64,000 bases of DNA from Beroe ovata (lineage: Eukaryota > Ctenophora > Nuda > Beroida > Beroidae): the NCBI GenBank assembly GCA_946803715.1, contig CAMPET010000166.1, positions 17,280 through 81,279 of the forward strand, in the 5' to 3' direction. The notes under the pieces were generated by a model. That model worked only from the letters and a program-made list of their open reading frames with translations. It searched no databases and was not told where the DNA came from. Position numbers and translations under genes: made by a program. Below, piece by piece: positions 19,660 to 58,500 of the stretch. Each line of letters opens with the position of its first letter. Within the stretch, counting starts at the first letter, position 1.

Positions 19660-22600
19660 ATGAACCCCCTCCCTCTCCCACCAATCCTCCTTCACTTCAT
19701 CTTTGTGATACCAGTATCCACCACTTTGACACCACCAGCTAGCAGCACACTGACACCACCCTGTCCGGAGTGGTGTCAGTGTGCTGACACCACTGTCATC
19801 TGCTCGGGGCAGGCGCTGAATATCGTCCCTCAACACCTCCCTCTTAACACTACTGTACTGTGAGTAACTGACACCACCACTTAGCCGCTGACACCACCAC
19901 TTCGCCACCCACGCCGAATTCCCGCTGACACCACTTTGACTCTGACACCACTTTTTATTCTGACACCACTTTCATTCTGACACAACTTTGATTGTTGACA
20001 CCATTTCAGTGATTTATCGCACAATCGGTTACGAGATGGGTGCTGGCAGGATATCGATTCCCTCATTACCTCACTCCCCTCACTTAACCTAGTGTGAGTA
20101 AACCAGGAAATTGACGTATATATTTAGAATTTGGTGGGAAACTGAGCATTGAGCAAGTTCAAATTACCGGAAACAGGTAATTTGAGAAAACTCAAATGCC
20201 CAACGAGTTGCACACGAGTTATGATTGTCCCCCCTCAGGAGGCTGAATGATAACATCTTTACATCTCTGCCCAGAGAGTATCAGAATGTCAAAATGTGAG
20301 TGCCATTCTATCCTCCTTCCGAACCGTTCCCCATCTCTCATCATTTCCACTCAACTCCACGACTCACTGCTTTCCTCACGCAATTACAGCTCCTTGATAT
20401 GGAGTTCAGCTCTTGTTGATAAACTACACATGCTTTCCACTTGTATAGTAGTACTTGTGATTGAAATACTGCATAACAACTTTATTAAAAAAGATAGAGA
20501 GAAAATTGAAATAATGTTGTTAAACGGAGTATTAAAATTTTGCAGAATTTCTGCAAAATATTCTGGAAATAAACTCACATGTACCCAATTTTAATGACCA
20601 GCTATATATATTACCGTGCAAAATTTACCGGAAACCTGCTCCTTTATCAACTCTACCACAGCCGCGTATGTCTCATGTTTTTAAATGCCATGCTCTCCCC
20701 AGTGACATATCGGAAAATCCACTGCACTGTGATTGTCCGACTCTCGAGCTGCCCAGCTACGATTTCCTACTCGACCCTGAGGCGGTGAAGTGTGCGAGCA
20801 CATCAAACCCTGACATAAACGATGTTTACCTCTTCAGCTTGAGCAGGAATACTCTGCGTTGTGGTAAGTCACATTTTAACAAATCATGAGATGTAGTTAA
20901 TCGCGTCCTCGTGAACACTGGATTTGATGATTCGCTCGAGTTTAATTTGTGCGAACGCGCCTCCGGCCTGCATGTGCCACTGCGCATTAACGCGTGTCTA
21001 TGAGTGAACTATAATACAAGGAATTAATAATTCTCATTTATTGAATATGACCCTCGGTTCTTAATGGAGGGAGAGAGGATGGGAGTTCGAGAGAGATTGA
21101 TTTGTCACCAGTATATGTCAGAAAGTTGCTACAAGCAATTTCCCTCGGAAATTGACTAGATTCCATTGTCTCTCGCTGCATAATAAACTATTGTGAGATT
21201 GGGTCCTTTGTTCTCATGAGACAATGACAGAGCTCTGTGAGATTGTCATTGCATTACAGCCATATCATGGCATGTTCGGTCTCCATGACAGCCATGTCAT
21301 CACTCTGACAACTCTATAACAGCACTATTCCACCATAACACCCACAGATGTCATCTCCTTGACACCCTCCTTGACACCTCTCCCCCCTCCCCAGATGACC
21401 GAGATTTGATGGTACCGGCTGAGGTCACCCTCTACAAAACCAGCAGTCGGCAGGAGATATCCTGTAGTAAACCACAGCACGGCACAGTGTACTGGTATCG
21501 TTACGGAGAGTTGCTATATAAAACTGGGAATGTAGACTGTTCGCTCTCCATTAGGTTTGTGTTACCATGGTAACAACTTTACTTTACCATATACCATGGC
21601 AACATCATTACCATGGTAACAACAATTCCAGGTACATGAGTAGTAGGAAGACAGGCATGTATGAAGTGAGGTATGAAACTCCCTTTGATAACACGACACT
21701 TTACGTCAAAGTCAAGTTAGAGGAAGGTAGGTGATGATGGGATCACTTGTTGAAAGTCCCTCTCTTATTTACACCGAGAAGATGCCGTGCCTATGAGAGT
21801 CACCCAACCTCCCTTCAATTCCCCCCGTTCTCATCCTCACTCACCCCACTCCCTCTCACTCCCTCTCTTCCTCCTCAATTATACTTGTACTCATCCCACT
21901 CCCTCTCTACCTCCTCAACTAGATCTGTACTCACTCGCTCTCTACCTCCTCAATTAGATCTGTACTCACCCCACTCCCTCTCTACCTCCTCAACTAGATC
22001 TGTACTCACCCCCTCTCCCCCTACTCAGAGAGTTATTTACCGGTGATAGATGTCACTCACACGGTGGTGGAAGTTCCCTTCAGAGGAACCTCCAAACTGA
22101 CATGCTCCGCTACGGGCATCCCTCCCCCTACCATTGAGTGGTTCTTTGAGGGGAGCAGCCTCACCGAGATCATAGGTATTGTTGTCATAGCGACACAGGG
22201 ATAATAGTATAGATGTCATAGCGACACAGGGATAGTAGTATAGATGGCATAGCGACACAGGGATAATAGTATAGGTGTCATAGGGACAAGATTATAGGTA
22301 TTGTTGTTATGGTAGGATTAGGACTTTATGTCCCAGATGTTGAAATCTTTGGTTATTTCTCTGTCGTAGAGAGGTCATGACAACTTTTCTAACATCGACA
22401 TCTCTCAGAGGAAGATCTTCTCCTTGTTGATGAACGCACCGTATTCGTGTCTGACGTCACAGTGGAGCGAGTGTTCACGTGTCGAGCGAGCAATTTCGTG
22501 GGTTACACCGAGGCAAACTTTGTGGTCCGGCCCGTGGATACACTTAGTAACCGTGGAGAAGTGTTTGAGTGGCTAGCCCCTCTATCCGTGGTGTTGCTAG

Positions 22601-24207
22601 TACTGACAGGGGCAGGGAGTGCAGCTTACTATTTCTATAGTAAACACCGGTTAGCGGTACTGAAACAGCGGTGTACAAGTCCGGCTGTCAGTTCAACTGC
22701 GGGCACTATATTCGGTGAGTACAGTCAGTGAATAGGTAGTCGATAGCAGACTATAATCACAGTAGAGTAGAACACTAGAACGGTTGTCTTGGCAACGCCG
22801 TTTCCGATAGAATTTCCTCCAACTGACTCATTATCTCACTATATCTGACTGACACCTATTCCCAGAGAACAGTGAAGCGTACCCCTCTACTATACTGGAG
22901 GGTGATGGCTACAAGATGATAACAGTGTCCACCTCCTCTCCCCCTCACCAGTTTATCTGTCCCATCACTCGGGACTGTATGGTGAGTGGAGCATGGTTTC
23001 CATGGTTTCCATGGTTCTCAAATAGTCTCAATTCCTGTCATATTATGTACCACCATATTATGGAACCGTCCCCAAAAACACTGCATATTACTATCAGTTA
23101 CACACCTCCTATTCTCACTCTCAGAAAAACCCTGTCGTTGCCAGTGATGGTTTCTCATATGAGGAGAAGGCTATCCTAGCGTGGTTCAAGAGGAACGGGA
23201 CCAGTCCTATGACAAATGGGGAGATTAACAAGCGACTTATTCAGGTAAGTCTGAATTGTGTGTCTTCTGGAGTCGTGTGTTGTGGAGTCGTGTGTTCTGC
23301 ACATGTCCCCATACCCTCTGACCCTCTCTCCTCTAACTCATCTCTAACCCCTCCTATCTGCTCCCCTTCTGCTCCCCTGTCTAACTCCTCTCCTCTTTCG
23401 CAGAACCACAATCTCCGAACTCTGATCACTGATATCATGGAGAAGACACCCGCCTCGGACAGCTTCGTTAACATCCACCATCTCACACACGTGAACCCCC
23501 ACACTCCTGCTGAGACACAGTCTACTACCAGCTCTCCTCACCATCCTAACAGCCATCCTGGCAGCAGCTCTCCTCACCATCCTATCACTAGTAGCGGGAA
23601 TCCTCACTCCTCAGGGACCAGCTCTCCTCACCCCACTTCCAGCAGCAGTGAAGTGGGGAGACCATCTTCCTCCAGACATTCCTCACCCAGACCATCCTCT
23701 TCCTCTTCCTCCTCCCACATATCCTCCTCTTCTATTCGTGGGAGAAGGGTAACCGCCCCATCATCGGGTAGGAGTCTCGGTGACGTCACGAGATCCTCGT
23801 TGAGACGACCAGGATCTACCACGAGAAGAAATACCCCGAGGAGTGCCGTGACGATGAGTGCGCCATCTTTGGAGGTGGACTCGTCTGTGGCGGTGGACTC
23901 GTCTGTGGTGAACTCGTCGATATCAAACGCAGATGAAACAACAGACACTGCGGCAGAGTTGTCCAACGTGTCTCTAACGGATCAGAGTGATGAAGTGACA
24001 TCACCTGATGTCACTTCGTCCCAGAGTTACATCACCGCACGTGATGATGACGATAGTGATGTTAATGTCATCAGGACGCAAGATGAACAGACTATCTCAT
24101 CGGGAATAGGCTCCTCCACCTCACTCGATATAAATATTATGGAGCAGGATGTTATTGAGACTGCGTTCAGTGTCTTCCCTCCTCGGGCACTGCTCGCTGA
24201 GGAATGA
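19660..24207 (+). CDS. LRR - Ig - Ig - transmembrane - U-box receptor (putative membrane E3 ubiquitin ligase)
   Basis: Eleven exons join without a phase conflict: 19660-19859, 20010-20093, 20239-20295, 20703-20863, 21395-21554, 21632-21726, 22029-22175, 22409-22714, 22866-22981, 23125-23244 and 23404-24207, giving 749 residues. Order: signal peptide (1-20); LRRNT with C35-x3-C39-x-C41-x6-C48; LRRs (LDLSHNRL, RLNDNIFTSLP); LRRCT (NPLHCDC, 119-125); Ig1 (168-252, lacking the usual F-strand Cys); I-set-like Ig2 (C278, W290, C326); TM helix (357-378); U-box (432-496) with FICPITRDCM, NPVVASDGFSYE and SPMTN; then about 250 Ser/Pro/Thr-rich acidic residues. The U-box resembles that of WDSUB1. U-boxes recruit ubiquitin-charged E2 enzymes, so by inference an extracellular signal could be coupled directly to ubiquitination. 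Ligand and substrates are unknown. I know no animal protein with this order. It could be a merge of two genes, but exon 8 joins Ig2 and TM, and exons 8-9 run in phase from TM to U-box. Confidence 0.87.
19727..20009. repeat. TGACACCAC-type repeat spanning exon 1 and intron 1 of the LRR/U-box gene
   Basis: About ten copies of (c/t)tgacaccac(t/c) at 12-25 bp spacing run from coding exon 1 into intron 1 up to the exon 2 acceptor. In exon 1 they encode the TTLTPP/STLTPP repeat between the signal peptide and LRRNT. Confidence 0.75.
21851..22020. repeat. About 40-bp minisatellite in intron 6 of the LRR/U-box gene
   Basis: Three to four copies of ctctctacctcctcaact followed by agatctgtactcacccc, pyrimidine-rich, directly upstream of the exon 7 acceptor at 22028. 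Confidence 0.85.
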
Positions 24208-27575: not shown

Positions 27576-30500
27576 TTACATCTTCTTCTTCTTCTTGATA
27601 CCTCCCCGGGTCTTCTTGTTCCGTTGGTCGATGATCTGTTGTGCCTGTTTCTTGATGACCATCCTGGTTGGAGCCTCGTCATCAGGGTCACTTTCTTCCT
27701 CTTCTGTGGGAGTGTGGGGGGTGGGAGTGTGGGTGTTGTGAATATACTCACCCAGACCACTCACTCACTCACTCAATCAATCACTCAATTACTCACTCAC
27801 TCACTCACTCACTTACCATCGAATGCACCACGATCCGAAGATGCTGGTAAGTTGATTCGGACGTTGTAAGTCGGTAGTTTATTCTCGATAGCCACACGGA
27901 ACTGAAAAGGAAAAAATGCTGGTGAGGTGCAATTACCTAAAACACTCACGCAGCCGTAATTAGGTTATTACCTCACCATTTATTAGGTAATTATCTAATT
28001 AACTCACTTCCTCATCCTCCATGCCGCTGTACAATTCCGAAACATCCTTCCCATCAAGATCCTCCATCAGTTTCATGAGTTTCTGTTCACACTGGGCCAG
28101 GAGATCGATCACAAAGTCCTCGGCTGTGGACTGGTTCAAACGAGCTGGACCCTGACCCTTGGGCTGGGGGATAGAAATATGTGACTGTTGGCTAGTCTTC
28201 TCTCGTATTTTACATATTAGGACTGTAATAATAAGGGATTAATTAGGGGATCGCACTATATAAATATTTTAATTGACACCTGTTGCTTATTACGTATGCT
28301 CAGTAACATTTTATTTGACATTCACTAACTCTGGCATATACATACTACACAGGTGATATAGAATGCAGGTGTTAGTGGATAGCCGGCGACTTCATCCTCT
28401 AGTTGTGAGCAATTGTTGTGAGCAATTGTTGTGAGCAATTGTTGTGAGCAATTGTTGTGAGCAATTGTTNCTCCATCAGTTTCATGAGTTTCTGTTCACA
28501 CTGAGCCAGGAGATCGATCACAAAGTCCTCAGCTGTGGACTGGTTCAAACGAGCTGGACCCTGACCCTTGGGCTGAGGGATAGAAATATGAGACTGTTGG
28601 CTAGTCTTCTCTCGTATTTTACATATTATATTAGGACTGTAATAATAAGCACTATATTTTAATTGACACCTGTTGCTCATTACCTACCCTTAGTTACATT
28701 TTATTAGACATTCACTAACTCTGGCATATACATATTATACAGGTGATATAAAATGCAGGTGTTAGCGACGAGCTGGCGACTTCATCCTCTAGTTGTGAGT
28801 AATTGTTGTGAGCAATTGTTGTGAGCAATTGTTGTTGATGATATTCGACCATTTCCCGTCTAATTAGTTTGTAGTTCCCAGACTTCGCAGCTCGACACAC
28901 CCTAACAGTAACACTTAACAGCCGATAATCAGTATTCCACACTGGATAGCTACTGTAGCTATAGATCAACAGGTGTACAATTTATATATTGCAAATAGCA
29001 GCGATAAGACAGTGAGTAAAAACAAAACCTATTGTGAGAGGGATTCCATGGTTAACAAGATGTTTTTGTGTGGGTTTTTATTCATGCGGCAGCGTCTGGT
29101 GACAGTATGGTAACAGTGGGCGTGTTGTCAGACTTAGTGATGTTGCAATATAACAGTCATCCCATGTTTACCTATTCTCTCGTTAACATGTTACACTGAC
29201 ATGTAATCCTGACTTCATTGGACGGTGAACAATGAAATAAAGAGTATCTTGAGTACTTAGATCCTAGCACATTTTTCGACTTTTCTCGTACCCAGTGAAA
29301 ATGATCCTCCTGCTATCCCTCCCTCTCCGTGACTGCTTGATCCCCCAAATCCTCTCTCTGAGTAAGTTGACCACGGTATATTGGTGAGCACGTGTTCGTG
29401 AGCACGTGGATTCCCTCAGTCACACTCTCTCTCCCTGTGTTTAATACAATGGTTGCCTGCTCAATAGCCAATCCTATCGTCCGTATCCTCTTTGTACTAT
29501 ATAAGCTACGGTTCTTGTGGTCTCCTCATCAGATTCGAATTCTCTACTACAGTAGATAGTGATACCCACTATCAGACACTCAACTCCTCCCCTCCCCTAT
29601 TTTAGCCCTGCATGTCCAATTCCAGCCTCGACTCAGAGTATTCCCTGCAGCCCTCCCCCTACAAGTGGCTGGATGTGACCATCGCTCTGAGCCTGATCCT
29701 AGCATCCCTCCTCACTGTCTTCCTAAATATCATCTCCGCCAAGTATTTCATGTCCATGGAAACACGGAATTCCAACCACTTGTACTTCAAGAGACTATAT
29801 TCCATCATCTCGCTCAATGATGTCTTGATCGGACTTGGCGTCCTGCCAGTAGTGGAAGCTGCATTCTCAACGGATAGAGCGAGTGTGGTGTTTTCCTCAC
29901 ATATATTCTGTGAGATATGGTTTATTTTCTGGTACACAATCTACCAATTATCAATCATCCTGCTAGCCACTCTCAGCATATCTCGCCTACTCCTAATCAG
30001 GACCATGACACTCACCCTCTCCCCCTGGATACCATGGATAGTGACAGCTGGCACACTACAGTGGTACATCTCGATATACTCCGTGACTATTTACATGAGA
30101 CAAGTGTACGTGTCGTATATCCCCACCACATTTCACTGTAGTTTTGCTGGAATGAACCCAGCTGATGGTGCTAGGCTCTACTTACCACGTGATCGACTGA
30201 TGGCGAGAATATACAATTTCTTCACGTGGGGTGTGGCTATAGTTTGCTATCTGGTTGTTTGTGGCTCAGTTGTACACTCCCTAATTAACCTGGCACGGAG
30301 ACGGCGTATTTGCGGCAGCACTAGGGCGAGGAAGAGAGAGCGGGAAGCGGCTAAAACAGTGATTCTTATGACGTTACTGTATCTAGTGTTCAATTCTGTG
30401 TCTACAGTGACATTTATATACGTCATGGTCGATTGGACTGTGATAAATCCTGTTCAAATGGGAGTTGAAACAGTGGATCAGGTTTTCCATAGAGTGTCCT

Positions 30501-33500
30501 ACGAACTTTACGGCAAGTCACGTTTTCTGAACTCGTACCTGTTTGTGACGTGTACCGTTATTGGACCAGTGCTTAACAGTATGATTAACCCCGTGATTTA
30601 TTTCATGAGAGTAGATGGGTTTAGGCAATATGTGCACGGTATTTTTACTTCTATACGGGTAAAATCTTGTAAACAGTTAGATAGAGGTCGCAAAGTGTTT
30701 GCGAACCGCATTTCATATTCTCACCAAAGTAATACCATCGTTATTTGTAATACCAGTACTGATTTGAGTTGATATCACGAAATATCCCCCAGTAGTGTGT
30801 TTCTGGTGTTTGATTTGTGTGGATAACTCTACCGATTGCAGTTTGTCTATCTCTTAACTGAATTGAATGTTATTTTCAGCAAATGCGCGCGCGTTTGCTA
30901 AATGTTTCCATACCAACGAGTAAATTCAGCGCGCAAGTTCAACTTGGAATATTCTCGCGCGTTCCCAATATTCCATTTTAGCGATCGTTGCTACATGAAT
31001 ATTGTGACAAAAACAGCCGAAGTGGCAAATCCAATTACCAGTTTGAGAGAAATCAGCTTGTCGGAGAGGTGTTCAATTCCAGCTTTCACATTTAGAGAGA
31101 TCCTATCCATCCTCTCGAGCTTGACTCTGCTGTCTGTTGAGCTTTGGTCATATTCCTCTAACTTCGCCTGCATTTCCTCCAGCATGCGCTGTCCACTGGA
31201 CAGCTTCGCTTCTCCTGAGTACTTCATGTTCTCGAATTCAGCTTGGAATTTGGCCTGATGAAAGAATACAAGATGTAGTTAAACATACATGAATACGTGA
31301 TGAAGAAAAATACAAGGGATTTAAGAAGAGGTTACAAAGCATTGTGTATTGAACTTCACAAATCTCAAACTCAGAATCATCCCACCTTCTCTTCCCTCAG
31401 CCTGAGCAGTGTCTTCTCGTTATCGAATTTCAGTTTCTCCAGATGTTTCTGAGTTTCGCCCTGGAGCAGGAACCTCTGCACAACTTCCTGGATGTCCGAG
31501 ACTCCAGTTGCTTCCTTTATCTTGTGCATGGCTTCCTCGTATCCCATAATCTTCCTCTCCTGCTCCTCTCCGGATATTATCTTCTTTTCTTTGTCAGCGC
31601 CCGACACTTCTTCAGTGTGTATGCTTGATCGCGCCATCTGAAACACACACAACATAGATACACAATCATCACAGGGAGGTCAAGAATACTTTGAATCAAG
31701 TGAATCGATTATTGTATCTTCGTTCTAATTGTAGGTCAATGTCATGAGCTGTCTTCCCGTTCCCTGGCCAATTGGTGTAAATCAGGATAACTTTAAGGAA
31801 GATTTCGTACCCTCTTCTCGACTTTTTCTGCATGTGTTTTCTTCTCATCTGCCTGTTTTTTGTACTCTTGTAGTGCTTTCTCTCGCTCCTTCTTGTTTGT
31901 TTGCAGCTTCGAGTCCTGGAGAGAGGGAGGGGGTCATTAATTGTGTGAAAACTACAGGAACCATTCGCTATACACCAAGCACAGAACGCACTGAGAGGAT
32001 TCAGAACCATTTTCACGATAACGCTGCACCAGCACATCGTGTACTCACGAGAACACAAATTATAGAACGCAGTTCTTATTAGGACACACCGTTCACACCC
32101 ACTTCACCACACACACNNNNNNNNNNNNNNNNNNNNNNNNNNNNNNNNNNNNNNNNNNNNNNNNNNNNNNNNACACAACCACACACAGACACACACACAC
32201 ACACACACACACTACATCACACAGTACACACCTGAATCATGAGCTCTTCCTTTGCACTATCTCTCGCTGCCTCAGCATCCTTATTCATGGCAAGGATATC
32301 CGCATATTCTTTCCTCTTGTTCTTTATCATTGTCTGCAACTTGTCAACATGGTTGTCGAACTCCAATCGCTCCTGCAGTAGAAACACGTGACATTAGCTC
32401 TTAGTAACTGTCTTAGTAGCTGTCTTAGTAACAGCATGGTTGTAGTATCTGTCTTAGTAACAGCATGGTTGTCATAGCGACATCATGGTGGTCATGGTAA
32501 CTAACATCTTGGAGTCTGGTCAGTATCTGTTTGTAGGTGTTGTTAATGTGGTTAGCCTCGACACACTTGATGTTAGCCTTGTCAAATCTGTTCTCCAGCA
32601 CACGCAGCATCTGAGCGCTCTCACTCTCGCCAGCTGCCCCATTTTCCGCTACCCGAGCGTCATCCTTCATTTGTTGCAGATCGGTCTAAATGATGGGAAC
32701 AAAATCTAGAGTGGCGGGTTAGTGTCTCGGTTTAGTTATCAGTATCATACAGACCTACCAGGGAAAAAGATAAAAATGCCTGAGGAAAATGTGGCTCCAA
32801 AATATAGAGATTGATGTCTAGATTCAGAGCGGAATTAGAAGGTACCTGTAGCTGCTTAATCTTCTTCTCCTTTGAGCTGGTTTTGTGACACAAAGCATTG
32901 TACTGCTTGATCAACTCACACACTTTCTGATCGTATTTGGCAATCACTTTCTCCTGCAATGGGGTCCCAATGTGATGGACACTATAACGTGCCTACTGCC
33001 TACCTTTAAACACACCCCATGTAGTTAACATTCTAATCTAACCTGAGTATTCAACTGCATTATTACACACCGGACCAGCATTACAATCACAATACACATA
33101 TCATTGCAATTCATGACCCCCGCTTTACAAAAAGCCATGTGTCAACCCATTCAACTCTACTCTGACCCACCTGGCTGAGCATGCCACTGCGTACAAGAGA
33201 CACCTCGTTCCTGGAGGATGCATTGAATGCAGACAGGATAACTTCCTCATCACCTGCCTTGCCCTTTGCCACTGCCAGTTCCTGGTGAAGCTTCTTATTG
33301 CTCTGCCTCAACTTGGCTATGATCTCCTTGTTCTTATTCATCTCTATTTCTGAGCTCTCCCAGGCTGCTTTACGGTCTCCATCTAAGAGAGAGACAATGG
33401 TGAAGGGAAATTTCTATAGATAGCATGCCAGAATTCATATAATCTGATAGGTAAGCTTACTAAGAAACCTTCCATACCTCAAGGGATTGATAAGGGATTA

Positions 33501-47665: not shown

Positions 47666-50600
47666 TTATTCAACCACTATTCCACTAACCGTGCCATCCT
47701 GATCCACTCTGATAGGGTAGGCGAGCAGATGCCCCTGCATGGGATCCCCGCTCTCCTCCTCACTAACGAACTTCTCCCAGTTGCTCAGAGCTATCTCGTT
47801 CACCTGAGACACAAATTGAGGTGAGGCACATTGTGAGGTGAGACACATTGTGTGACATTTACATGAAAATGCTGAGAGACATTTCACATAGACGCTATGA
47901 TATTGTTTCGTCAATAAATTCATGAGAGATTTTCTACTTATGCTGATTCAAAGCGAAACACGAAATCGTATCGCTAAATTTGGAATACATATGCTGGATC
48001 TGAATTCTAGATGAGAGCGTCTCTGATCTCAAGAAAAGCACTCTACGATTTTCAATCTTGTCAGAGTTTTCATCTTCAAATCAGCTATAGTGTCTCAGTG
48101 AGTGTCCCATACAAACTCTCTTCCTTCACGCTGCCCAGTAGAAAACCAGTCCGTCTCATCACTGATATAGTCCAACAATGACTAGCTGTCCATTCCCAAA
48201 CATGAGATCCGTGGCTGAATATGCTGTCTCTCTCACCGTCTCTCCGTAAAACCAATGTAGATTCCCCGTTTAGGACGAATCGAGAGTGACATTTCTTTTT
48301 CCAGTTCTCTCTCACTCGGATACGGATCGTTCAACTCAAACTTCATGAATAACCGTGCAACAATTATCTTCATCTCCATCATGGCAAACTGTTTCCCAAT
48401 GCAAATCCTAGGCCCTGCAGAAAAAGGTAGAAAGGTGAAGGGCTTCACTTTGGAGCTCGCAGAAAACCTTTCCGGATCAAACTTTGTCGGGTTTTCCCAG
48501 TTCTCTTCGTTCATGTGACTCTGTTGGATGTTAACAAATAATTTGGTGTCAGGAGGGACTAACAGATTGTTAACTGTGGTCGCATTGGTGGGCGGTGACA
48601 CTCGGAAAGTACCAGGGGCTGGACCATGGAGACGTAGAGTCTCCTTGATGCACTGCTCGAGATAAGTGAGATGGTTCAGATCATCAAATCCGATCTCATC
48701 TCGACCCCCAGCTACCTCCAACACTTCAGCAGCAATCCTCTGGGAAATCTCCTTGTTTTTCAAACACTCCCACAGTAAGCCGGACAGAGAAATTGCAGTG
48801 GTCTCCATACCGGCAATCAAAAACAGGAAGAAGTCATCAACGACATCCTCAAGGGAAAGTCCAGTTCCCACATTGGCCTTTATAATATGAGTCAGCATGT
48901 CATCACCATGGTGACCGTTCCCAGACTCGGCCGAAATCTTGTCAAATCTCTCCTTGAGGTGGAACCCCACGAAATCCCGCAGAAAATAAACCGCCTCCTT
49001 TAAAACTGCTTTCTCCTCTCTGAACTTCCAGGGTAGACAAAAACCGATGATATTGAAGAAGTGTACATGGAGAATCGCAAACATTTTATCCAGCGAATTC
49101 TTAATGTGTGAGTCCTCATTTATCACAAAATCCTCACGCAGGTCAAACCCGCACGTGCATACAACCTCCAGGGCAACTCTCACCATCACACTGTGGATCT
49201 CCACCTCAGTACCCTGCCGATCCGCCAGATAACCGCACAATTTGTCCGCCACACCCGTCATCTGATCGTGTAGCTGCCGGAGGAATTTCTTCTGGAATGC
49301 AGGGTCCATAGCTCGGCGTTTACTGTACCAGACCTCTGTACCAGGATCGATAACCAGACTGTTCTTCCCCAGGATCCTTAACCCGTTCACAAAGTCGAGG
49401 AGAGAATCTCGTGGACTTTGCTTGTGATAAACCCTGTGATCACTCAGAAACCTCGCATAGATATCTCTATCAGTGGTGTAGAGAGTTGGCTGATTGCCAA
49501 AACCCAGGAAAATAACACACGTGTCGCCACCAGCTGACGATAGCTGCCTCATAGTCTCAAATGCGAGACACAAGTTCCATTGGTGCTTCTGAGCTATTTC
49601 CTTGAAAATGATGGTATGTCCAAGACACCAGGACGGTGATATTGGGATGGGAACAGACGGAATGTGTCTGTATCGGGATCTCTTGATATAGATGAAGATA
49701 TGGTGGAGTAACACAAGGAGTACGCCAGAAGCGACTAGGGCTGATAGTATCATGGCCTATATGATGGGGATTGTAAAGCTGGAATATGGCAGAGAAAGAG
49801 GAAAATGCAAGGACAACATGATAGCAAACATGACTGTTGTTATTAATGTCTCATTGATTAAAACAACATTATTATAGCGAGGAAAAATAGAGCGTAGGGC
49901 CTGCAAAAACGTGATTAAAAACTGCTAAGCTTTTGGACATTCCTCAATATTTACAGCGAAAGAGACTCAAAAATTGAATCACAATTCAACGACGAATGCG
50001 ATTACTTCATTCGTTTTGACGCTACAGAGATGGGAGGGAAATTACCCCAAGAATATAGGCCTCTAGCCCTTATTAGGAAGCTAGGAATGGCCTACATTAC
50101 CAGTCTCTGAGGGTGGTCAGAGAGTGACTACGACAAATTATTGCTCTGAGCATTTAAAATATACGTCACGTCTAGGCCAACGTGGGGCGATGTAGAGAAA
50201 GCCTGGTAATATGTAGTAGCTGATGCGGCAGCCACCAAATACAACGCGGGTGGATCTCTCAATATATGTCCCCACTATCCTATTTCCAGGAAAAAAGGGG
50301 GCGGGGGGGTGTCTACGGGGCGGTAATATCTCACAAAGGGGCGAATATATCCAGGAAAAAGGGGGATGTATCGGGGTTGCCTCACAAAGGGACGGATATC
50401 GGTGCGTAACACAGAGNTCCCAAACGGATCGATCGATTGATTTGAAACATCCTTAGTACGGGGAGATGCAATATCTGGAGAATTAGAGTGAAAACATAGG
50501 TCACTGCTAATTCTATCTAATATTGGGAGTAAAAAATATTAAACAAACAAGTAAATCGAATTGGTCATGTCAACTTTCCTTCCGTCGACAAATATAGTCA

Positions 50601-53600
50601 AGAACCAGTCGATATTACTTTCTCATTTTTAGATTCAAGAATATAATGCGAGATGTCGTTGATTGAATTTCTTGTCATTCATTCTTGGAGAAATTAGAAA
50701 ATAGAAGCGGATGTAACGTAATGCCGATGATTGAATTTTTCCCAAAAAGCGCAAAAATAAGGTGTTATTTGGTGAAACTGAAGCTATGAGTGATCATCGA
50801 CAGGCAACAATAATTGGAACACTTACCTTCCTCATACACTCAAGGGTGCCCGGTTCGTTGAACTCATCACACATTTCCCCCATATGCTCGATCCATAGCG
50901 ACTTCCTGAATGCAGCCACCTGGAATAAAACATAGGGGATGAACCGGGAAAAGTCGTCTTTTTCAATGATTATTTGTTCATCTATATTATATTAATAGGC
51001 GGCCACTCCACTTGCTGTGCTATTGCTGTGCTACTGTTGTCTTACTGTTGTGTTGCTGTTGTCTTATTGTTGTGTTATTGTTGTGTTACTGTTGTGACTT
51101 GCGTTACTGATCTGTTACTGTTGTGTTTTTATTAAAAACCCGGCGGCACTTACATCTCCCTTAGGAAGATCAGTGTTACAGAGGAACTCAGGCTGGAAGC
51201 ATCCTACTGCCATCTCCGTGTCCCGACGTCCGGACATACTGCGCTGGTTAATGTTAGCACTTCCCACAATGATGTACTCGTCATCAGTAATCAGCATCTG
51301 TAGGGAGGCGGGAAGAGAGGGGTTAGAGACGGGCGATGGTTAGAGAAGGGGCAAATCGGTTATCAGCATCTGTAGAAGTTAGGGAGGGGGCNNNNNNNNN
51401 NNNNNNNNNNNNNNNNNNNNNNNNNNNNNNNNNNNNNNNNNNNNAATTGATGAAGGAATCATATTTGTTTGGGAGGTAAGGTAGGAGAAACAGCTCGTTA
51501 GGTAAGATGAGGGAGATTTGACGGCAGAGAGAAGGGGTTCCGATTGAGGGTCCACGCCTCACCTTAGAATGTACGTAGATAGGGAACCTGTTTTTCTCCC
51601 GCAAATGGCACTCAATCTCAGTTTCAGGCTCAGCTAGATCCTCAGGTTGAGAATCACCCCTTACCCCTGAACAAGATGAAAACAACTACTCAGTAACCTT
51701 CATACAAACACCAATACAACACTAAAATACAAACACCAATATAAACACCAATACAAACACCAATAGAAACACCAATATAAACACCAATACAAACACCAAT
51801 ACAATCACCATTGTAACGCTATCATCCCATTTACCAAGACAATAGAACCCGAGGTAATCAGTAGGATGAGTGTCAAGACCCTGCTGTTCGATAATCTGGG
51901 CAATTGACTTGTACATCATCATCATGGTGCAGGTCTGCCAATACAGAATTTCCTGTACCTGGCAACATGACACGATGTTAACATGCTGACACCTTGTTAA
52001 CCTTGATATTGTTGACAACTGTTACCAATGATAACTGTTACCAATGATAACTTTACCAATGGCAACTGTTACCAATGACAACTGTTACCAATTACAACAG
52101 TTACCAATGACAACAGTTACCAATGACAACAGTTACCAATAAAAACTGTTACGAATGGCAACTGTTACCAATGACAAGAGTTGACAGTGTCTCACCGGGG
52201 CAGAGGAGGGCACTCCTTCGGGGTACATGGGGATAACACAGTACACACACGGGTGTTTTCCCAGCGTCATCCCGTCCACAATGTGCCGGACCAGCTCAAT
52301 AGCCACCAAGTTCACCGCTTTCTTAGGTCTGTCATCGCCCTCCCATACATGAGATGAACCTTGGGGAGGGAGTGAGGGGAGTGAAGGAGGGAGTGAGGGG
52401 GAGAGGGAGAGGGAGTGAGGGAGTGAGGGGGAGAGAGGAGAGGGAAGGAGGGAGTGACGAGATAGGAGACGTAGGCAGTGAGGGTAAGAGTGTGTGAGGG
52501 TTGGTGGGAGAGGGTAAGAAGAGAGGGATGAAGAAGGGGGTAAGGGGAAACAAATGTCAGAAGAGGAACAGAGATCAAGGGTATAGGATGAGAGGAAACA
52601 TACCGAGGAAGTATTGGTTCTCAATGTACACGTAGTTAGTACATCTCCTGATTTGGTGGATGTATCCAGTGTGGATACTATCTTCTATCGTCTCGCTTCT
52701 CTCTGTCTTCAGCTTGGCAGCCCGGTGAAAATGAGAAAACTGCGGAGAGATGAGAAGGGAGATTAGCATCGGTTTTGGGATATCACTTAATGAACAGTGA
52801 GATGGAACCATCTTGGGGTTCAGTTCTATGAGGTAATCGACTCCAAGCAAACACAAACAACAAGTATCGCAAGTCTACCTGTCCATCAATAATAACTACC
52901 TGACAGCTCTGATTGGTTATGGATCTCAGGAACTGGACTGTCCATCTGTCCTCACCCTCATACAAATCCTCATCCAGATTGTACTCCTCACTGTCAATGA
53001 CAGCGAGGCAGCAGGATCCGTCGTCCTCACGAGCCCACCGCTCCTCAAAATTACGGAGTACATCCTGGGCTACCTTGCCGCAAACTCGACTGTGTCGGGG
53101 AGAAATGGGGATAATAGAGGTGTTGTTGACTGTCGGGGAGGGGGGGTGGAGTGTGTGAGAGAGGGATTGCGAGAAATAGGAGCTGGAGGGTTTTTAGTTG
53201 GATGCCAAATATGAGGGGGGGATGAGATTAATTTACCACAAAGAAGGAACAAAAACAGGTCAACCAACGACCTACGTATTATTCAATTTTTGCTCTTCCG
53301 CCAACCTGTGAATGTCATGCCACGGTTGCCTAGGTCCACACTCTGCCCTCACTTGCACACAGTTTTGATAGAAATCAGCAGAGTGCTGGTCGAGTAGAGT
53401 TGAGTATATGGGGTGAGAGGGAGTGTCGTATCGTCCATTTGTCACGTCCAGTCCCCCAACATAAGCTACTATTCTGTATCTGAGGGGAACTATGGAACTA
53501 GGGTCTATAGACAATACCCCACTATCGTCTCGATAGTCACGGTATCAGCAAATGCACACAGAGTCCACTATTAACAATTCTGTATTATATCAGACGCTCT

Positions 53601-55522: not shown

Positions 55523-58500
55523 TGAACTCATCACACATTTCCCCCATATGCTCGACCCATAGCGACTTCCTGAATGCGGCCACCTGGAATAAAGCATAGG
55601 GGGTGAACCAGTGTTCAATGATTATTTGTTCATTCATAATAGGCGACCGCTCTTCGGAGTGGAGGCATTCCCTCAGCGACCCATACTTCCACTTGATGTG
55701 CTGCTGTTGTCTTATTGTTGTGTTATTGTTGTGTTACTGTTGTGACTTGCGTTACTGATCTGTTACTGTTGTGTTTTTATTAAAAACCCGGCACTAACAT
55801 CTCCGTTAGGAAGATCAGTGTTACAGAGGAACTCAGGCTGGAAGCATCCTACTGCCATCTCCGTGTCCCGACGTCCAGACATGCTGCGCTGGTTAATGTT
55901 AGCACTTCCCACAATGATGTACTCGTCATCGGTAATCAGCATCTGTAGGGAGAGGGGAAGAGAGGGGGTGGTTAGAGAAGGGGCAAATCGGTTATCAGCG
56001 TCTGTAGAGATTAGAGAGGGGCATGGGGGTTAGGGGGGCATTGATGATGAAAAGGTATCGTATTTGTTTAGGAGGTAAGGAAGGAGAAAGAGCTCGTTAG
56101 AGAAGATGAGGGAGAAGTGACGCCAGGAGGAAGGGGTTCCGAATGAGGGTCCAAGTCTCACCTTGGAATGAACGTAGATTGGGAATCGGTTTTTCTCCCG
56201 CAGATGGCACTCAATCTCAGTCTCAGGCTCAGCTAGATCCTCAGGTTGAGAATCACCCCTTACCCCTGAACAAGATGAAAACAACTACTCAGGAGGTAAC
56301 CTGCATACAAACACCAATACAACACTAAAATACAAACACCAATATAAACACCAATACAAACACCAATACAAACACCAATACAATCACCATTGTAACGCTT
56401 TCATCCCATTTACCAAGACAGTAGAACCCGAGGTAATCGGTAGGATGAGTGTCCAGACCCTGCTGTTCGATAATCTGGGCAATTGACTTGTACATCATCA
56501 TCATGGTGCAGGTCTGCCAATACAGAATTTCCTGTACCTGGCAACATGACACGATGTTAACATGCTGACACCTTGTAAACCTTGATATTGTTGACAACTG
56601 TTACCAATGATAACTGTTACCAATGATAACTTTACCAGTGGCAACTGTTACCAATGACAACTGTTACCAATTGCAACTGTTACCAATGACAACAGTTACC
56701 AATGACAACAGTTACCAATAAAAACTGTTACGAATGGCAACTGTTACCAATGACAAGAGTTGACAGTGTCTCACCGGGGCAGAGGAGGGCACTCCTTCGG
56801 GGTACATGGGGATAACACAGTACACACACGGGTGTTTTCCCAGCGTCATCCCGTCCACAATGTGCCGGACCAGCTCAATAGCCACCAAGTTCACCGCTTT
56901 CTTAGGTCTGTCATCGCCCTCCCATACATGAGATGAACCTTGGGGAGGGAGTGAGGGGAGTGAAGGAGGGAGTGAGGGGGAGAGGGAGAGGGAGTGAGGG
57001 AGTGAGGGGGAGAGAGGAGAGGGAAGGAGGGAGTGACGAGATAGGAGACGTAGGCAGTGAGGGTAAGAGTGTGTGAGGGTTGGTGGGAGAGGGTAAGAAG
57101 AGAGGGATGAAGAAGGGGGTAAGGGGAAACAAATGTCAGAAGAGGAACAGAGATCAAGGGTATAGGATGAGAGGAAACATACCGAGGAAGTATTGGTTCT
57201 CAATGTACACGTAGTTAGTACATCTCCTGATTTGGTGGATGTATCCAGTGTGGATACTATCTTCTATCGTCTCGCTTCTCTCTGTCTTCAGCTTGGCAGC
57301 CCGGTGAAAATGGGAAAACTGCGGAGAGATGAGAAGGGAGATTAGCACCGGTTTTGGGATATCACTTAATGAACAATGAGATGGAACCGTCTTGGGGTTC
57401 AGTTCTATGAGGTAATCGACTCCAAGCAAACACAAACAACAAGTATCGCAAGTCTACCTGTCCATCAATAATAACTACCTGACAGCTCTGATTGGTTATG
57501 GATCTCAGGAACTGGACTGTCCATCTGTCCTCACCCTCATACAAATCCTCATCCAGATTGTACTCCTCACTGTCAATGACAGCGAGGCAGCAGGATCCGT
57601 CGTCCTCACGAGCCCACCGCTCCTCAAAATTACGGAGTACATCCTGGGCTACCTTGCCGCAAACTCGACTGTGTCGGGGAGAAATGGGGATAATAGAGGT
57701 GTTGTTGACTGTCGGGGAGGGGGGGTGGAGTGTGTGAGAGAGGGATTGCGAGAAATAGGAGCTGGAGGGTTTTTAGTTGGATGCCAAATATGAGGGGGGG
57801 ATGAGATTAATTTACCACAAAGAAGGAACAAAAACAGGTCAACCAACGACCTACGTATTATTCAATTTTTGCTCTTCCGCCAACCTGTGAATGTCATGCC
57901 ACGGTTGCCTAGGTCCACACTCTGCCCTCACTTGCACACAGTTTTGATAGAAATCAGCAGAGTGCTGGTCGAGTAGAGTTGAGTATATGGGGTGAGAGGG
58001 AGTGTCGTATCGTCCATTTGTCACGTCCAGTCCCCCAACATAGGCTACTATTCTGTATCTGAGGGGAACTATGGAACTAGAATCTATAGACAATAGCCCA
58101 CTATTGTCTCGATAGTCACTTATCAGTCCACTATCGTCTCGATAGTCACGGTATCAGTAAATGCACACAGAGTCCACTATTGTCGATTCTGTATTATATC
58201 AGACGCTCTATTGTAGACTATGTGCGCCTATGTGCGCCTAGCGTTACCTTTCATCCTCTTCTGACATGGGCGGAGCGTCACAAATCACACTCTTCTGATG
58301 GTGAGTGTAGACTAATCGTGCAAATGTTCCACCCCCTGAAGAAATAACGATCAGATTAACTAATTTATCAGCAATTGAGTACTTCATCAGCAATTTATCA
58401 GTAATCTTTGCAAAAACTAACCCAATCCGTCATTCTTGGATCGTCGAGCACATCTCTTGACAGTGACTTTCGTATCCTCGAAATAAGCAGCAGTGGCCGT

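Follow-up and report, generated by a model that had tools for sequence, protein, structure and literature searches.

Does a comb jelly encode, within a single gene, both a cell-surface receptor and a ubiquitin ligase (E3)? The question is raised by a gene of Beroe ovata located at positions 19660-24207 of the window, that is, the whole stretch of 64,000 nucleotides that was analysed (assembly GCA_946803715.1, contig CAMPET010000166.1, positions 17,280 to 81,279 of the forward strand). The predicted layout of its product is well supported: a signal peptide, a small LRRNT-LRR-LRRCT-like module (LRR, leucine-rich repeat), two immunoglobulin (Ig) domains, one transmembrane (TM) helix, a U-box and a Ser-rich tail. 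An earlier note, made from the DNA alone, had claimed that the LRR/Ig ectodomain, the TM helix and the U-box form a single protein, and this claim was borne out by a full-length relative in another ctenophore, Mnemiopsis leidyi. We read the product, with slightly better than even confidence, as a membrane-tethered receptor-ligase that would tag a bound surface partner for turnover.

The Mnemiopsis relative is a 656-residue "hypothetical protein", here called P0001, which was found with residues 380-520 of the window protein. Because these residues alone match it at E=4.6e-58, chance is excluded in practice. End to end, P0001 has the same order of hydrophobic N-terminus, LRRNT-like cysteines, two Ig domains, TM helix, U-box and Ser-rich tail, and at the sequence level the domain order is conserved between the two ctenophores. 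The whole-length identity is 50%. By segments, whose boundaries were set by us and which compare these two species, the identity was 62/134 in the LRR region, 40/83 in Ig1 and 42/93 in Ig2 (45-48% for the ectodomain modules), 18/23 in the TM helix (78%), 28/49 in the linker, 66/74 in the U-box (89%) and 50/247 in the tail, the last with 85 gapped positions. As far as sequence can tell, this is the conservation profile of a constrained enzyme plus helix under a faster ectodomain. Three protein database searches, which returned 7, 3 and 6 proteins, found P0001 each time and no other ctenophore protein; the remaining proteins covered 45-52% of the TM/U-box region, 19-23% of the ectodomain or 5-19% of the whole.

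The gene model was rebuilt on the DNA and gives a coding sequence of 2250 nt, corresponding to 749 residues and a stop; the residue numbering used throughout is that of this model. The earlier claim of eleven exons spliced in phase was confirmed: every exon lies at its stated position, and all 10 introns are GT-AG with compatible phases. At one border, the acceptor of intron 2, an alternative fits better. For each intron, the frame-keeping and stop-free GT/AG pairs lying at most 45 nt from the borders (3-24 per intron) were scored against P0001, and the pair of the earlier note was the best scorer at 9 of the 10 introns. Intron 2 ends in a CAGGAG tandem acceptor, whose downstream AG scores 1441 vs 1430 against P0001. 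Its use makes exon 3 span 20242-20295 and the protein 748 residues long, and changes LNLVRLNDN to LNLVLNDN, restoring the regular LxLxxN step of an LRR. Two further observations concern the gene structure. Intron 10 (23245-23403, 159 nt) has a length divisible by three and is free of stops in frame; its retention would put 53 residues within the U-box, a possible off-switch for the ligase, and the alignment shows no such insert in P0001. In addition, CTGACACCAC-type tandem repeats at window positions 19710-20008 span exon 1 into intron 1, and the TLTPP repeats that follow the signal peptide, absent from Mnemiopsis, seem to be derived from them.

The exon 8/9 junction deserves particular attention, since two adjacent genes, one for an LRR-Ig-TM protein and one for a U-box protein, might have been misjoined in both species. 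P0001 is presumably itself a gene prediction, and the window model was built on DNA. Nevertheless, the linker is conserved on either side of the junction, and of the 14 frame-keeping pairs scored at intron 8, the one in the model came out best; reading exon 8 on into the intron leads to an immediate stop (...TIFGEYSQ stop). The earlier note had named a stop or promoter between 22714 and 22866 as the mark of two genes, and on sequence this was not borne out: M421 is the first Met of exon 9, yet 10 of the 17 residues ahead of it (404-420) are identical in Mnemiopsis, as counted on the alignment. A Mnemiopsis annotation from which P0001 may stem was moreover built with RNA-seq hints (PMC11797021, excerpt). 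We consider a misjoin most improbable.

The U-box had been called canonical, and Pfam PF04564 was found at residues 430-492 (E=1.5e-9, 38.3 bits against a cut-off of 21.4), as it was in P0001 (41.8 bits, same cut-off). Apart from the U-box and Ig families, the Pfam scan of the full-length protein (E<=1) returned only two zinc-finger families, both below threshold. Ig_3 was matched above its cut-off at 257-330 (E=5.9e-9) and I-set at 262-339. Of the two Ig-like domains proposed earlier, Ig2, with C278 and C326, is recognised by Pfam, and Ig1 (about 168-250) is atypical, having only C191 and C216, and draws its Pfam support from the two I-set stretches found in P0001.

For the LRR module, no LRR family was matched in the window protein in that scan, and a scan of the B. 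ovata genome with LRRNT PF01462 gave 2 places, neither within this gene. On the other hand, residues 34-105 matched sequences of Slit, VLR (lamprey), LINGO and LRIG1 chains in the PDB (e.g. 1w8a, 35-105, E=1.9e-8), cysteines 35, 39, 41 and 48 fit the LRRNT spacing, and in P0001 LRRNT is matched below its cut-off (17.9 vs 25.8 bits). Two to three LRRs can be counted by eye. Cysteines 123, 125, 144 and 167 are taken by us, from the pattern only, to form a putative LRRCT-like cap; LRRCT PF01463 was not among the Pfam matches of the window protein or P0001. In a study of immune genes in M. leidyi, canonical Toll-like receptors (TLRs) were absent and the LRR C-terminal cap domain was undetected in three ctenophores (PMC11797021, excerpt); the word "ubiquitin" is not mentioned there. 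Two segments of the window protein exceed the hydropathy threshold, the signal peptide and one TM helix, and basic residues follow the latter, so the U-box should be cytoplasmic. The broad class of LRR-Ig transmembrane proteins fits, with LRR and Ig from PDB sequence matches, Ig also from Pfam and TM from hydropathy.

Table 1. Exons of the Beroe ovata gene in window coordinates
Feature	Position	Strand	Content	Evidence or remark
Exon 1	19660..19859	+	Start, signal peptide, LRRNT (Cys 35, 39, 41, 48)	Gene model, PDB sequence matches; signal peptide by hydropathy only
Exon 2	20010..20093	+	LRR	Gene model; alignment to P0001
Exon 3	20239..20295	+	LRR	Better acceptor 3 nt downstream (start 20242)
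Exon 4	20703..20863	+	LRRCT-like cap (Cys 123, 125, 144, 167)	Pattern only
Exon 5	21395..21554	+	Ig1, first part (C191, C216)	Gene model, P0001 alignment, Pfam on P0001, Cys positions
Exon 6	21632..21726	+	Ig1, second part	Gene model, P0001 alignment
Exon 7	22029..22175	+	Ig2 (I-set), first part (C278)	Gene model, Pfam, Cys positions
Exon 8	22409..22714	+	Ig2 end (C326), TM helix (about 357-379), basic stop-transfer	Gene model, Pfam, alignment, hydropathy
Exon 9	22866..22981	+	Juxtamembrane linker with conserved YKM[IL] (419-422), first U-box loop (CPITRDCM)	Gene model, alignment
Exon 10	23125..23244	+	U-box core	Gene model, Pfam, U-box alignment
Exon 11	23404..24207	+	U-box C-terminal helix, Ser-rich lysine-free tail (497-749), stop	Gene model

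Ubiquitin-ligase activity is predicted from the U-box sequence. AlphaFold2 run on P0001 as a single sequence gave a mean predicted local distance difference test score (pLDDT) of 33.9, which is unusable, and with ten sequences only the U-box region exceeded 70. Of the structure prediction proposed in the earlier note, the U-box region was modelled, with a U-box fold. The U-box might still be catalytically dead and serve as a scaffold or E2 sink. Its function is predicted from sequence, and SPMT is followed by Asn, whereas the CHIP of the same genome has Arg there; against this, the identity of the U-box between the two species is far above that of the rest of the protein, and the alignment shows that the conserved first-loop Ile, an E2 contact, and the Pro are retained. 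A dead U-box is considered very unlikely, and an active ligase acting on a partner is kept as the preferred reading.

The composition of the cytoplasmic part bears on what such a ligase would tag. Outside the U-box it has 3 lysines in 302 residues (K380, K387 and K420), and the tail has none in 253 residues, which include 16 Arg; for the 170 residues of the Mnemiopsis tail the counts are 1 Lys and 12 Arg. In frames of at least 220 residues pooled from the window and fetched loci, a pool that includes the exon-10/11 frame of this gene and frames not proven coding, 569 Lys were counted vs 563 Arg. A lysine desert is defined as a K-free run of at least 150 residues or 50% of the protein (PMC10665810), and the window tail fits this definition. 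Such deserts are reported to be prevalent in disordered proteins of the ubiquitin system and to prevent self-tagging of yeast San1 and Slx5/8 (PMC10169902, excerpt). The lysine-free tail thus points to an E3 acting on something other than itself. The protein could instead be a self-limiting adhesion or guidance receptor, whose U-box would act in cis on its own cytoplasmic lysines and set its surface level. The three linker lysines adjoin the U-box, a YxxPhi-type motif between the TM helix and the U-box (YKM[IL]) is kept in both species, and many E3s autoubiquitinate; nevertheless, the scarcity of lysines is against self-tagging as the main job, and this alternative appears distinctly improbable.

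At the end of the TM helix both species have the small-residue run TGAGS, followed two residues on by YYFYSK, and this run may be suited for helix pairing. CHIP and Prp19 homodimerise, and MIR1/2 are believed to dimerise by their TM segments (PMC7010608, excerpt).

Taken by sequence, the protein belongs both with the U-box proteins and with the LRR-Ig membrane proteins, and it lies outside the LRIG, RNF43/ZNRF3, TLR and named animal U-box families. The nearest known protein in outside shape and outcome is LRIG1, and in outcome RNF43/ZNRF3 and MARCH/MIR. LRIG1-3 are alike in having an LRR then Ig ectodomain, a single TM helix and a link to ubiquitin-dependent receptor removal, and the top PDB sequence match of the ectodomain was an LRIG1 chain (4u7m; residues 226-346, the Ig part; E=1.3e-12). 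LRIGs, however, combine many LRRs with three Ig domains and are not known to contain an E3 domain, LRIG1 recruiting Cbl, whereas the present protein shares the single TM helix and has few LRRs, two Ig domains and a U-box in cis. RNF43 and ZNRF3 are type I membrane E3s with a PA ectodomain and a RING that remove surface receptors; neither PA nor RING was found in the window protein (Pfam E<=1). MARCH/MIR proteins are also membrane E3s that downregulate surface proteins, but with a RING-CH and no known LRR/Ig ectodomain. LINGO, AMIGO and NGL/LRRC4 have an LRR and Ig ectodomain with a TM helix, and PDB sequence matches were obtained to their LRR caps, but their cytoplasmic tails are not known to carry an E3. 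TLRs differ by their TIR domain, absent here; the sponge Ig-TM-TIR receptors and plant U-box kinases named in the earlier note are other joins of recognition and effector, with TIR or kinase. Partner domains of animal U-boxes include PPIase, the UFD2 core and SEFIR, and the U-box of the window protein may resemble that of WDSUB1. Ubiquitin-linked receptor removal is described for LRIG1 and Met (PMC5870354, excerpt), and ZNRF3 is described as a transmembrane E3 (PMC6996932, excerpt). A survey of animal U-box proteins from 2010 includes UBE4A, UBE4B, UIP5, PRP19, CHIP, CYC4, WDSUB1 and the divergent Act1, with TPR as the partner domain in CHIP and WD40 plus SAM in WDSUB1 (PMC3087547, excerpt). 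The named families share the U-box with the window protein, in which their partner domains are absent (Pfam E<=1).

The earlier note knew of no such architecture, and a search of the open literature by titles and abstracts, subscription papers lying outside its scope, likewise found no receptor-type or membrane U-box protein. The excerpted 2010 survey describes no U-box protein as a receptor, and its main text does not contain "transmembrane", "immunoglobulin" or "ctenophor" (PMC3087547). In the B. ovata genome, an exon-by-exon protein search gave 21 matches, 11 in this gene and 10 elsewhere (E 1.2e-4 to 2.2), each a piece only; among the best candidates, which were scored, there was no second LRR/Ig/TM/U-box gene. 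A U-box survey of the same genome gave 9 matches on 8 contigs, a lower bound, since it missed the split U-box of this gene. At two of these loci, C43 and C175, frames of at least 45 residues on the U-box strand were read, and no LRR or Ig frame was seen by eye beside either U-box. Five other U-box contigs received only a scan for hydrophobic stretches, whose hits in non-coding frames were too numerous for it to be of use; the regions covered in these two ways thus lay on 7 of the 8 contigs, the exception being that of CHIP. On the minus strand of C175, near 111602-111775, the U-box exon follows a CCCH-zinc-finger-like stretch, a join that to our knowledge is not among the named animal U-box types.

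These results also bear on a signalling receptor, in which ligand clustering would join the U-boxes and non-degradative chains, TRAF6- or Act1-like, would feed immune or stress signalling. Families of TIR, death or TRAF type were absent from the Pfam scan, one simple TRAF-binding pattern had no match in the cytoplasmic part, and the single gene copy found is unlike expanded immune receptor families; this alternative is considered unlikely. Among immunity, adhesion and turnover, partner turnover is favoured, and a coupling of surface recognition to ubiquitination is plausible from the sequence. In the receptor-ligase that we propose, a comb-jelly receptor of single-pass type I topology that carries its own U-box E3, the short LRR module and the two Ig domains would engage a protein of the same cell or of a neighbour, while the conserved TM helix would position the receptors and perhaps pair them. 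Beneath the membrane, the U-box would recruit a ubiquitin-charged E2, of UbcH5 or Ubc13 type by analogy with solved U-box complexes, and tag the cytoplasmic part of the partner, leading to its endocytosis and degradation. The YxxPhi motif could take the complex into clathrin vesicles, and the lysine-free tail would spare the ligase's own disordered tail from tagging. By analogy, the logic is most likely that of LRIG1/Cbl or ZNRF3 placed in one chain, with a U-box. We infer the E3 activity, dimerisation, endocytosis and a substrate in trans.

Several points weigh against this proposal. The comparison covers two species only, and the case rests on DNA and protein sequence. In Mnemiopsis the tail has no K-free run longer than 143 residues, below the 150 of the definition, the lack of lysines could stem from the Ser-rich composition, and K380, K387 and K420 are left for self-tagging. 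The YxxPhi motif is short and may be a chance occurrence. The U-box has Trp, as do 8 of the 11 rows of the U-box alignment, at the position of CHIP His260, which is mutated to kill CHIP activity (PMC7010608, excerpt). Against the U-box model, RING domains align nearly as well as true U-boxes, which leaves the fold match with little weight beyond that of the sequence match, and the ectodomain models are unusable. On balance, the architecture is well supported, and the E3 activity, ligand and substrate remain predictions.

Elsewhere in the window, whose GC content is 42.8%, a 507-residue stop-free frame at 48236-49756 (-) encodes a cytochrome P450 (Pfam E=8.9e-76), and a 388-residue frame at 29606-30769 (+) has a rhodopsin-type seven-transmembrane match below the cut-off (E=1.7e-4, 21.6 vs 30.5 bits), possibly a ctenophore G protein-coupled receptor. 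A 2.1-kb repeat is present at 51448-53548 and 56045-58126, about 4.6 kb apart, with 96.5% identity and flanking pieces at 82-86%; either the stretch was recently duplicated in tandem or the assembly contains it twice.

In well-studied animals, separate ligases link LRR/Ig receptors to the ubiquitin system, and the known membrane E3s are RING proteins with unrelated outsides. The modules of the present protein are ordinary ones. What is unusual is their combination, of which the searches made here found no description. A conserved chain of LRR/Ig and U-box would be a new type of receptor in one of the earliest animal branches, and would add to the animal U-box genes a type that the 2010 survey lacks. 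It would also be a natural parallel to the engineered recruitment of E3s to surface receptors (REULR, PMC10127277, excerpt), and its Mnemiopsis counterpart, whose annotation reads hypothetical, can be put to direct test. More tentatively, and as a possibility that we rate short of probable, comb jellies may have a dedicated class of receptor ubiquitin ligases whose U-box becomes active upon binding or clustering, without adaptors of Cbl, TRAF or Nedd4 type. If this is true, the class would be the ubiquitin counterpart of the receptor kinase, leading from recognition to ubiquitination in one polypeptide.

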